Below are positions 2,144-32,281 of a stretch of DNA of 32,982 nt, piece by piece. The notes under the pieces were generated by a model. It searched no databases and was not told where the DNA came from. It saw only the letters and a program-made list of their open reading frames with translations. Origin of the DNA: a virus. The position numbers and the translations under genes were made by a program. Every line of letters begins with the position of its first letter. The stretch's first letter is position 1. The stretch spans positions 1 to 32,982 of the IMG/VR virus record IMGVR_UViG_3300035666_000105. One strand, 5' to 3'.

Positions 2144-2223
2144 AAAAAGGCTTCACCTGCTAACTCCACTTTTTAGGTGGTTGGAAGAACGGTCTTAGTA
2201 ACCGCCAGTTAGCATGTGAAGCC
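2144..2223 (-). terminator. Long hairpin plus U-run, terminator or attenuator
   Basis: Seventeen-base arms at 2149-2165 and 2207-2223 pair with one mismatch. Read on the minus strand, the stem ends in GTGAAGCC followed at once by five U (2148-2144), the form of an intrinsic terminator. The 41-base interior also folds: GGTGGTT with AACCGCC (plus-strand reading, one wobble), capped by AAGA-ACGG-TCTT. GTGG can instead pair with the nearby CCAC, so two inner folds exclude each other. It lies in the leader of the DnaT-like gene, the place of tR1 in lambda. Confidence 0.6.
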
Positions 2224-2235
2224 CTACTAAAGTTA

Positions 2236-2251
2236 ATCACTTCCAAGTGAT
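2236..2251. promoter_or_regulatory. 16-bp palindrome, possible operator
   Basis: ATCACTTCCAAGTGAT is a 16-base inverted repeat: seven-base arms around CC. A two-base loop is too short for a good RNA hairpin, so a protein-binding palindrome is likelier. It would cover the first transcribed bases of the promoter-like site at 2259-2287. The cognate regulator is unknown. Confidence 0.35.
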
Positions 2252-2258
2252 AACAACA

Positions 2259-2287
2259 ATCTTAATTTAAATACTTTTAATTGTAAA
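2259..2287 (-). promoter_or_regulatory. Candidate promoter for replication gene
   Basis: On the minus strand TTTACA (2287-2282, five of six consensus) is separated by 17 bases from TAAGAT (2264-2259, four of six). It lies at the 3' end of the VRR-NUC gene and points at the palindrome, hairpin and DnaT-like gene. The same TAAGAT hexamer is in the capsid promoter candidate near 27393. The region is AT-rich, so chance matches are possible. Confidence 0.35.
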
Positions 2288-2620
2288 GTAATCATTTATT
2301 GCTTGTTTAGCTTCATCGAACCCATAACAAACCACAGCTTTATAACCCATAGCAGTTGCCACAGTCATAAACTCTTTCTGGCTGCTAGACACCTTACCGC
2401 CCTTAACCTTCATCTCAATGAATAAGCCATGATACTCGGCTGCAGGGATCATTAAGAATAAGTCAGGCACTCCAGCCATGCCACCCTCTGCCTTTAACTT
2501 AACTGCTGTGCCTATATGTCGGACACCACCATTAGGGATCGCCCACAAGCATTTAGCAAACTTTGGGTATTGGTAGCGAAACCATTGGATTGTTGCAACC
2601 TGCTCTGCGTGTTCTGTCAT
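2267..2620 (-). CDS. VRR-NUC domain nuclease
   Basis: A 117-residue single-domain nuclease of the VRR-NUC (PD-(D/E)XK) family. Visible catalytic elements are an N-terminal Glu (E3 or E6 in MTEHAEQ), GVPDLFL with D53, and IEMKVKGGKVSSSQKEF with E69 and K71, then a Gly-Tyr strand (MGYKAVVCYG). Stand-alone VRR-NUC proteins in phages are thought to act on branched or structured DNA during replication and recombination. The start overlaps the methyltransferase stop as ATGA, so the two are co-translated, which also permits a modification-dependent role (inference). It is complete at the usual length for this compact family. Confidence 0.88.
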   Translation of the reverse strand: MTEHAEQVATIQWFRYQYPKFAKCLWAIPNGGVRHIGTAVKLKAEGGMAGVPDLFLMIPAAEYHGLFIEMKVKGGKVSSSQKEFMTVATAMGYKAVVCYGFDEAKQAINDYFTIKSI

Positions 2621-3606
2621 ACAAAATCCATTGATTGTTGAGCCGTTCGTTTATCTTGAATTTTTATATACTCTGGATTTAGTTCTGCACCTAACCATTT
2701 TCTACCAAGTTTTTGCGCCACCTTACCAACTGTTCCACTTCCCATGAATGGGTCAAAAACAATATCGCCAGTTTTAGAGCCAGCTAATATGCAATATGTT
2801 GGCAGCTCCTCTGGGAATGTAGCAAAGTGTCCACCGCTTTCTTGACTGTTGGAGTTTGCAGGAATAAACCATACATCTCTTTTATTGCGTGTTTCAGTAT
2901 ATGCTCTAAATCCAGATTCTGATTGCGTTCCATCCATATTATGCCGTCTGCCACTATTTGCAGCTTCAACACCTTTACTGCCTCTAGGTGAACTTCCATC
3001 ATTACTTACTGATTTTTCTTTAATTGCTTCATTATCAAAATAATATTTTTCATTTTTACTTAACAAAAATATATATTCATGGGATTTAGTGCATCTGTCT
3101 TTTACACTTTCAGGCATTACATTTGGCTTTGCCCAGATAATATCTTGTCTTAAATACCAACCATCAGCTCGTAATGCAAATGCAAGCATCCACGGTATGC
3201 CGATTAAATCTTTATTCTTTAATCCTTGCGATTTAAGCATTTTTGTATCACGCACTCTGCTTAATCCTAAATCCATAACGTGAGCATCTTCTCTTGTTGT
3301 GCCTTTAGCTAAAGTTTGTCCAACACTTTTGCAGTCTTTATGACTTGAATAACTATCGCCAATGTTTAACCATAGCGTTCCATCATCATCAAGTAAATCC
3401 CATAAGCATCTAAAGACTTCAACCATTGCATCAATATATGCTTGCGGTGTTTGCTCTAATCCTATTTGTCCATCCATTCCATAGTTACGCAATCCATAGT
3501 ATGGCGGACTGGTTACGCAGGTTTGAACTTTTACACCATCAGCTATTAACTGGCGCATTACATCACGACAATCACCTACAATCGATTGGTTTATTATCAT
3601 ATTCAT
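2617..3606 (-). CDS. DNA methyltransferase, N4-cytosine/N6-adenine type
   Basis: A 329-residue SAM-dependent DNA methyltransferase with motifs in the circularly permuted (beta) order: catalytic motif IV TSPPYYGLR at residues 32-40 and SAM-binding motif I FDPFMGSGTV at about 284-293, followed by LGAELNPEY. SPPY is more typical of N4-cytosine enzymes, but N6-adenine activity is possible. The variable stretch at about 165-260 should contain target recognition. No restriction enzyme with a matching gene pair is present, so self-protection against host restriction is the simplest role. It starts at 3606, overlapping the stop of the Cro-like gene (ATGA), and is thus the second gene of the leftward operon; the ATG at 3600 is an alternative start. 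Confidence 0.9.
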   Translation of the reverse strand: MNMIINQSIVGDCRDVMRQLIADGVKVQTCVTSPPYYGLRNYGMDGQIGLEQTPQAYIDAMVEVFRCLWDLLDDDGTLWLNIGDSYSSHKDCKSVGQTLAKGTTREDAHVMDLGLSRVRDTKMLKSQGLKNKDLIGIPWMLAFALRADGWYLRQDIIWAKPNVMPESVKDRCTKSHEYIFLLSKNEKYYFDNEAIKEKSVSNDGSSPRGSKGVEAANSGRRHNMDGTQSESGFRAYTETRNKRDVWFIPANSNSQESGGHFATFPEELPTYCILAGSKTGDIVFDPFMGSGTVGKVAQKLGRKWLGAELNPEYIKIQDKRTAQQSMDFV

Positions 3607-3782: not shown

Positions 3783-3801
3783 ATTGCTCTCCTAAAACCG
3801 C

Positions 3802-3830
3802 ATTATAATTTAAATTAAAAATAAATGTAA
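3802..3830 (-). promoter_or_regulatory. Leftward promoter of the Cro-like operon
   Basis: On the minus strand a perfect TATAAT (3807-3802) lies 17 bases from TTACAT (3830-3825). Transcription would begin about 20 bases before the Cro-like start. The -35 match is weak, and the surroundings are very AT-rich, so activation or partial chance similarity is possible. Confidence 0.5.
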
Positions 3831-3865
3831 TATATTTATAAAATAGGTTGCATTTTATTTTTAAT
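3814..3865. promoter_or_regulatory. Inverted repeat in the divergent switch, likely operators
   Basis: ATTAAAAATAAATG at 3814-3827 is mirrored by CATTTTATTTTTAAT at 3851-3865 (one extra base). One arm lies in the spacer of the leftward promoter and the other in the spacer of the rightward promoter, so a bound repressor would touch both. The Cro-like protein is the natural ligand by position. Low complexity lowers confidence. Confidence 0.4.
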
Positions 3866-3876
3866 GGGATTATAGT
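3848..3876 (+). promoter_or_regulatory. Rightward early promoter
   Basis: TTGCAT (3848-3853), a 17-base spacer, then TATAGT (3871-3876, five of six). It stands about 42 bases ahead of the first early gene, whose start has GGAG at good distance. It is the only sensible source of transcription for the plus-strand operon 3918-6908. Confidence 0.5.
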
Positions 3877-3917
3877 TATTCCACGTACCAAGCAGGTGCG
3901 CTTTACTGGAGATACAA

Positions 3918-30710: not shown

Positions 30711-31128
30711 TCTTGATAATAACTCGTTCTATCTTGGTAAACTCTAGCGCAGCACCATCAGCACCAGTAAGCTCATGCTTTTGGGTTTCTGCCCAGCGCA
30801 TCTGCGTCTTACTCCACCAAATAGCAGCAGTAGTATCGCCAGCCATTACCTTGCTGAATAAAGTCTTACCCACTTGAGCATTGGCTTTAGCTTTGCCTGA
30901 CTGTAACTCTGAGCTGAAGTGCGCCCTTAGTGTGTCAATGTGAATACCATCTCTTACTAGTGATCCAATTTGGTCAATTGGTAATCCGTAACCTGACAAG
31001 GCTTCTACCTGTTTACGTTCTGCATCTGTTGGCTCAAATGCTGGTCTGCCAGCACCTTCTCTAGCTCCACCGTTCTGCTTTTTCTTTTCTAGCACCGATT
31101 TTTCAGTTGTTTTCTTTTTTGTTTCCAT
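30703..31128 (-). CDS. terS: Terminase small subunit
   Basis: A 141-residue TerS, close in size to Sf6 gp1 (140). Basic start with GGAREGAGRP at about residues 20-29, a motif often seen in TerS; then a helix-turn-helix-like part (GLPIDQIGSLVRDGIHIDTL) for recognition of the pac site, and a helical oligomerisation core with AIWWSKTQMRWAE. It overlaps TerL by 8 bases, and its start lies 26 bases inside the ParB-methyltransferase gene. In P22-like phages the pac site lies within this gene; I cannot recognise one by eye. Confidence 0.85.
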   Translation of the reverse strand: METKKKTTEKSVLEKKKQNGGAREGAGRPAFEPTDAERKQVEALSGYGLPIDQIGSLVRDGIHIDTLRAHFSSELQSGKAKANAQVGKTLFSKVMAGDTTAAIWWSKTQMRWAETQKHELTGADGAALEFTKIERVIIKNE

Positions 31129-32281
31129 GTGTAACCTCCGCGAAAGGTTTATTAGTGTCTGCGTGAACTGCTATCTTACCTGTAAATTCCTGCCAGCGTT
31201 TAATTATTACATCGCAATATTTAGGTGACATCTCCATCCCGAAACAGTTGCGCCTTGTCTTTTCTGAGGCAATGAGGGTAGTTCCTGACCCACAAAAGGG
31301 TTCAAAAATATTTTTTGATGATAGTTTGAACCGTTTAATAATCCATTCCATTAGCGAAACTGGCTTTTGTGTTGGATGAACACGATTAGTTTTTTCAGAT
31401 GCTTGTGTAAATTGTCTAACAACACTTCTAAAATTTGCCCACGCTAACTCACAATCTGTTTGGTCTGATTGTCCATTATTTTTATCCCACACCAACCAAC
31501 ACTCACTGTCAGGCAATACTGAACAATAATAATTAGCACCCCACCATATCTGCTTTGCGTTTGGATATAATCCAATAATTAACTGAAAAGCATCTTTAGC
31601 AATATTAGGGTTGTCATCACCCATAATATCTGTCTTATAATTCTTAGATAAAACTCCGCTTTTTGTAACTGCGTTCATTCCATAAGGTGGATCTGTATGA
31701 ATTAAATCAGGATAAACTCCATCCATCAGTTTCTCTACTGCATCAATACTTGTACTATCCCCGCACATCAACCGATGGTTGCCTAACAACCATACATCAC
31801 CCAATACGGTAACTGGATTGATTGGCACTTCTGGAACATCATCCTCATCGGTTAAGCCTGGATCAATCTGCTCAGGCATCAAGGCTGCAATCTCGTCAGC
31901 AGTAAAGCCTGTGAGGTCTAGGTCAAAGTCCAAGTCTTTCAGTTCACCTAACTCTAGTGCCAGCATCTCGTTATCCCACCCAGCATTAAGCGCAAGTTTA
32001 TTGTCGGCAATAATATAAGCACGTTTCTTTGCATCACTCCATCCAGCAGCCACCATCACAGGTACTTCAGTCATCTTTAACCTTTGCGCTGCGAGTGTTC
32101 TGCCATGACCTGCAATAATACCGCCTTGCTCATCAACCAATACTGCGGTAGTAAATCCCCACTCTTTGATGCTTGCAGCTATCTGGGCTACTTGTTCATC
32201 GCTATGCGTTCTTGAGTTACGTGCATACGGCACTAGCCTGTTAATATCCCACTGCTCTACTTTGTCTGCTGGATTTTTCAT
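31103..32281 (-). CDS. ParB-like domain fused to DNA methyltransferase
   Basis: A 392-residue two-domain protein. Residues 5-110 are a ParB/Srx-like nuclease or binding fold with IIAGHGR (55-61) and the VPVMVAAGWSDAKKRAYIIA strand-helix. Residues 155-375 are a beta-order methyltransferase with TDPPYG (196-201), HPTQKP (302-307) and the SAM loop EPFCGSGTT (327-335). DPPY suggests N6-adenine methylation. Such fusions often precede TerS in phages, and may mark DNA for protection or influence packaging. It is the second methylase of the genome. ATGA overlap with the AP2-like gene upstream; 26-base overlap with TerS downstream. Confidence 0.9.
   Translation of the reverse strand: MKNPADKVEQWDINRLVPYARNSRTHSDEQVAQIAASIKEWGFTTAVLVDEQGGIIAGHGRTLAAQRLKMTEVPVMVAAGWSDAKKRAYIIADNKLALNAGWDNEMLALELGELKDLDFDLDLTGFTADEIAALMPEQIDPGLTDEDDVPEVPINPVTVLGDVWLLGNHRLMCGDSTSIDAVEKLMDGVYPDLIHTDPPYGMNAVTKSGVLSKNYKTDIMGDDNPNIAKDAFQLIIGLYPNAKQIWWGANYYCSVLPDSECWLVWDKNNGQSDQTDCELAWANFRSVVRQFTQASEKTNRVHPTQKPVSLMEWIIKRFKLSSKNIFEPFCGSGTTLIASEKTRRNCFGMEMSPKYCDVIIKRWQEFTGKIAVHADTNKPFAEVTHGNKKENN

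Follow-up and report, generated by a model that had tools for sequence, protein, structure and literature searches.

The 32,982-nucleotide stretch of viral DNA analysed here (IMG/VR record IMGVR_UViG_3300035666_000105; hereafter the window) carries, on the minus strand at positions 2251 to 2144, what its sequence indicates to be one copy of an RNA family of fixed anatomy. As read from the alignments, this anatomy comprises a sigma70-type promoter, a hairpin (P0) at the RNA start, a three-way junction closed by a 17-bp helix (P1), two predicted pseudoknots (PKa and PKb), and a U-run. The family is real and strongly conserved, and is apparently undescribed. Since the RNA sits just before genes that initiate DNA replication, it probably acts as a switch controlling this process in the phage.

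Anatomy of the element in the window

The element, of approximately 108 nt (2144–2251), is delimited by a covariance model match of 113.7 bits and by two alignments (A1 and A2), which place its predicted 5′ end near position 2251 and its predicted 3′ end within the U-run. The RNA, its promoter, and the two genes that flank it all lie on the minus strand. Upstream is a VRR-NUC nuclease gene (2267–2620) and downstream a replication gene (1404–2129), the DnaT-like gene of the initial annotation, in which Pfam identified Lin1244_N and DnaT domains. The annotated promoter, TTTACA-17-TAAGAT, is present at 2287–2259. Its −35 box (TTTACA, 2282–2287) lies within the 3′ end of the VRR-NUC gene, and its −10 box (TAAGAT, 2259–2264), separated from it by a 17-base spacer, ends 7 nt before the first RNA hairpin; this spacing is kept in relatives. 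A lone promoter-like match is not unusual in this region of the window, where 8 were found against 10.3 expected.

The RNA is predicted to begin with P0, a hairpin of five base pairs and a 6-nt loop throughout the family, which in the window corresponds to the 16-base palindrome ATCACTTGGAAGTGAT (2236–2251; stem ATCAC/GTGAT, loop TTGGAA). Four of its five stem pairs covary in A2. The loop itself (2241–2246) forms the 5′ strand of PKa, and covariation pairs it with the junction strand TTCCAA (2186–2181). The second pseudoknot, PKb, joins the leader immediately 5′ of P1 (TTAGTA, 2225–2230) to the loop of P2 (TACTAA, 2200–2195), with two-sided changes in five of six pairs. Thus the 5′ leader is predicted to be tied back at two places, by PKa to the junction strand and by PKb to the P2 loop. 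The palindrome had been noticed for its position at the presumed start point; it does lie at the predicted start of the promoter's transcript, and what relatives keep there is an RNA hairpin with a pairing loop. We rejected its reading as an operator because the P0 loop covaries with the junction.

The 75-base inverted repeat described in the initial annotation was likewise found in full, with its 17-base arms and its U-run. The arms GGCTTCACATGCTAACT (2207–2223) and AGTTAGCAGGTGAAGCC (2149–2165) constitute P1, in which 16 of 17 positions are complementary and one A·G mismatch is present on the sense strand; the family as a whole displays the same 16 pairs and mismatch. Two-sided changes occur in 15 of the 16 pairs in A2, which also supports the 3′ arm by covariation, so that the arms are both conserved and compensated in relatives. 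P1 encloses the hairpins P2 (GGCGGT/ACCGTT, 2188–2206), whose G·U pairs covary in loci L214, L216, L229, and L230, and P3 (CCAC…GTGG, 2166–2180), with two-sided changes in three of four pairs. Together with the TTTTT run that follows it (2144–2148), P1 forms a predicted intrinsic terminator, a layout (a G+C-containing P1 stem followed by 5–9 T) that is also seen in the members listed. Thermodynamic folding of the sense strand at 2225–2143 (83 nt) yielded −36.4 kcal/mol (z = −5.6), and none of 200 shuffled sequences folded as well. The window therefore displays each feature that defines membership in the family model: P0, P1, P2, P3, PKa, PKb, promoter, and U-run.

Covariation supports both pseudoknots

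Across the 47 sequences of A2, standard pairs filled 97.2% of cells, compared with 34–50% in slid controls. Two-sided changes were observed at 31 of 43 pairs, and none of 500 shuffles reached any of these measures. A larger alignment (A6) of 66 distinct sequences was made by a model blind to pseudoknots, and in it 96% of the cells of the whole structure were paired, against 32–47% in slid controls, a level that none of 500 shuffles attained. Within PKa the share was 100%, and within PKb 85%. Both pseudoknots are kept in divergent members that were retrieved by a pseudoknot-free model.

In PKa, a P0 loop of the form UUGGNN (sometimes GUGGNN) pairs with a junction strand of the form NNCCAA, and more than 12 sequence combinations were seen. 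The combinations UUGACG/CGUCAA in L262 and UUGCAG/CUGCAA in L267 alter pairs that are invariant in A2. PKb takes the form CCAACA/UGUUGG in L245. Cells with G-U outnumbered those with A-C in two counts (146 against 9, and 204 against 36), suggesting that the functional strand is the RNA in the sense of the gene. The conserved positions, inspected for an unpaired seed like that of Hfq-type sRNAs, lie nearly all within helices. A short open reading frame within the RNA (ATG CTA ACT GGC GGT TAC TAA) was also considered and dismissed, as it is not conserved: its ATG becomes ATA in several members, and its frame is altered by changes in P2 loop length.

Size and distribution of the family

An exact pattern for the 17-base arm retrieved 31 viral contigs, nearly all with the two arms approximately 59 bases apart. 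Once aligned, 27 sequences, that of the window included, have the whole element and the palindrome, while their flanking genes differ. Relaxed patterns extended the set to 69 loci with 53 distinct sequences, and blastn added the GenBank metagenome phage MW202462. A covariance model built without pseudoknots (R1) identified further members. Its scan of 14 phages, isolate or metagenome, added MW202520 (L245) as the one real new member, and three divergent ones came from loci that had been fetched solely by their VRR-NUC gene. A scan for one divergent subtype yielded at least 120 contigs; among the 80 listed, 79 match the model at E ≤ 4e-11. In total, the family comprises at least approximately 150 IMG/VR contigs, along with three metagenome-assembled phage records of GenBank. 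As many of the contigs are nearly the same, the loci counted here do not represent independent events. Each of the 22 records searched whole has a single copy, the second match in one of them being the opposite strand of the same place.

The search patterns fixed parts of P2 and of J2/3, so the invariance of both is partly an artefact of selection; both vary in L214, L216, L229, L230, L245, L261, L262, and L267. Most matches to patterns of 14–16 bases were chance. The lone GTDB genome matching a subtype-specific pattern (L211) has neither P1 nor terminator and was also judged to be chance, and a weak match in Vibrio phage 1.134 (20 bits, no U-run), from the scan of 14 phages, was rejected. A blastn search of INPHARED and plasmids with the window element returned nothing above chance. 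No covariance model of Rfam (4227 families) matched at two thresholds, riboswitches included, and no published description of the RNA family was found in the literature searched (open-licence papers).

Transcription signals and genomic context

The promoter is a feature of the family. A promoter-like pair matching at least 8 of 12 positions occurs at the same distance from the hairpin in 84% of 50 members; among 5951 control positions the share is 4.9%. In a second subtype, 56 of 83 members have such a pair, compared with 2.9% of controls. The −10 box mostly ends 5–8 nt before P0. Likewise, at least five T directly follow P1 at all loci in the first listing and in 81 of the 83 second-subtype members. 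From the end of the U-run to the next start codon there are mostly 8–16 nt; in the window there are 14, within which lies a Shine-Dalgarno-like GGGAG (2136–2140). Meanwhile, half of the same-strand gaps between genes in these loci exceed 20 nt by rough ORF calls. The distance from terminator to gene thus seems to be under constraint and is too short for a second promoter to fit, although the compactness of phage genomes could partly explain such tight spacing. Upstream ORFs appear divergent in L010, L018, L365, L210, and L230, which makes the RNA the operon's 5′ leader and first transcribed feature at these loci.

The window phage encodes a P22-type portal and Terminase_3, and its early region is ordered as cro-like gene, DNA methylase, VRR-NUC, the RNA, Lin1244/DnaT, NinB-like gene, and DUF968/RecA-dependent nuclease, the cro-like and NinB-like labels being assigned by eye without a Pfam match. 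The gene at 2617–3606 is N6_N4_Mtase by Pfam, and the one at 31103–32281, beside the terminase genes, has by eye the look of a ParB-methylase fusion. Across the family, the genes downstream of the RNA fall into 63 distinct protein groups. The commonest encode DUF1376 or primosomal proteins, DnaD-like loaders, and other replication proteins. HNH and GIY-YIG genes and a family of 60–70-aa ORFs are also found there, often with a replication gene next. The endonuclease genes directly follow the RNA at the usual short spacing in L006, L177, L190, L206, L356, and L395. The 60–70-aa ORFs come directly after the RNA in L002, L008, L341, L394, and L402, and often stand between the RNA and the replication gene. 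In L206, the RNA (3793–3897) is located between erf and HNH/ssb-like genes.

Some relatives display other elements in this position. L265 (approximately 3327–3570) and L266 (approximately 383–630) do not have the RNA and carry DnaA-box-like clusters of TTATCCACA in the slot behind VRR-NUC; the motif suggests an origin region. A different block of approximately 160 nt, common to L255 (2545–2740) and L259 (3340–3535), precedes a DUF1376 gene and may be another structured RNA. In L269–L272, a conserved block TAGGGCTAGGTTATGCAGACCGAAAAG…CTGCCC lies just after VRR-NUC and before a DUF1376-like gene, and is possibly a further RNA type.

Comparison with known systems

The phage-encoded RCd22-AbiF system of C. 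difficile has the order promoter, ncRNA, terminator, gene, with read-through; as is predicted here, a structured ncRNA of 100–130 nt ends in a Rho-independent terminator ahead of a gene, and most transcription stops there (PMC12373285). There the RNA neutralises a toxin that the gene encodes, whereas replication initiators, endonucleases, and others follow the RNA described here, which has no Rfam match. Type III toxin-antitoxin systems (ToxIN) also place a pseudoknotted RNA and a terminator before a gene, but the window RNA is a single unit and not a set of tandem repeats. No ToxN-, AbiQ-, or AbiF-type gene was found downstream among 37 distinct proteins (N-terminal parts; 25 commonest families with PHROG).

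The pO-oop-tO unit of lambda likewise carries its own promoter and terminator and yields a short RNA in the replication region of a lambda-like phage, as a leftward transcript antisense to cII (PMC5869508). The window RNA, in contrast, is pseudoknotted and shares its strand with the replication gene; the G-U counts favour this sense strand. Lambda tR1/nutR is similar in that a terminator separating the cro side from the replication genes acts on the whole distal operon. However, tR1 is not known to lie within a pseudoknotted RNA having its own promoter. A role as a lysogeny-immunity RNA was judged unlikely, since none of 22 records, most of them not known to be complete, displayed a tyrosine integrase.

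Possible roles of the RNA

The initial annotation had read this region as a regulated promoter plus an attenuator. A promoter and a terminator-ended structured RNA are indeed predicted, but the element is more than this: a discrete double-pseudoknot RNA. Our favoured proposal, to which we give an even chance, is that this RNA serves the replication operon as its leader and gatekeeper, producing mostly terminated RNA with metered read-through. Under this proposal, the promoter would yield mostly a short, compact, terminated RNA, while a metered share of polymerases would read through into the replication-initiator operon. The pseudoknots would form before P1 is complete and would govern how well the base of this stem closes against the U-run. 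PKb ends where P1 starts, so by geometric reasoning its formation could strain the base of that stem. Such a short RNA would be expected to build up and may also serve a second function in trans. The gatekeeper proposal is supported by the close spacing of terminator and gene, by the RNA's leader position, and by the fact that the next gene is mostly a replication initiator; RCd22-AbiF provides a precedent. Against it, P1 is so stable that constitutive termination would be expected, and no antiterminator pairing proved to be conserved. Nearly the same RNA stands ahead of unrelated genes, which gives no sign of gene-specific control, and the RNA of L206 does not precede an initiator gene.

The main rival is a role in trans, in which a stand-alone RNA would use its pseudoknotted fold to bind a host or phage protein or to mimic another RNA, with the replication gene behind it by chance in a compact early region. 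The annotation had offered an RNA in its own right as an alternative, and this gains support from the predicted promoter and terminator, the single copy in each of the 22 records, and the same RNA ahead of so many unrelated genes. In addition, almost every nucleotide is paired and the shape is kept by compensation, as for a structural scaffold. The spacing from U-run to start codon, much tighter than that between genes, and the persistent association with the replication slot speak against it, and we regard this reading as tentative. The same tentative standing applies to its broader form, a new class of compact phage RNA, with two crossing interactions and a three-way junction at its core, that would act in trans on a cellular target such as polymerase, ribosome, ribonuclease, or defence machinery and would travel as a cassette next to the replication gene.

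Other roles are less probable. The RNA, or transcription from its promoter, might help to start replication at a nearby origin, by priming or by transcriptional activation, as its location at the replication gene and the TTATCCACA clusters in the same slot of L265 and L266 would allow. We consider this improbable: the conserved terminator argues against a primer that needs extension, and origins of such phages usually lie within the initiator gene. As for precedent, lambda pO/oop was once proposed as a primer, an idea later rejected, and pO still affects replication (PMC12197685). A cis-acting antiterminator that modifies RNA polymerase leaving the early promoter would suit a structured RNA near such a promoter in a lambda-like early region. 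HK022 put is likewise a structured RNA of early phage transcripts, but it consists of approximately 70 nt with two stem-loops and two copies per genome, placed in both early operons (PMC9378689), whereas our element has a different fold, one copy per record, and a terminator-like U-run at its end, which makes such a role very unlikely. A two-state attenuator or riboswitch, with P3 giving way to a P2/J2-3 helix, is equally unlikely. The competing pairing that the initial annotation noted, of GTGG with either CCAC or part of AACCGCC, exists in the window but is not kept in relatives: of 28 distinct sequence combinations, only 8 reach six of the seven pairs and none reaches all seven. Furthermore, P2 and P3 are both maintained by compensation, and Rfam returned no riboswitch.

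These findings suggest that a layer of early or replication control has been overlooked, in the form of a strongly covarying double-pseudoknot RNA, absent from Rfam, in at least approximately 150 environmental phage contigs. The phages concerned are small and apparently integrase-less. The pairings are precise enough for immediate tests by swap mutation. Furthermore, the comparison of replication slots suggests that these phages keep swapping different control elements at one place.
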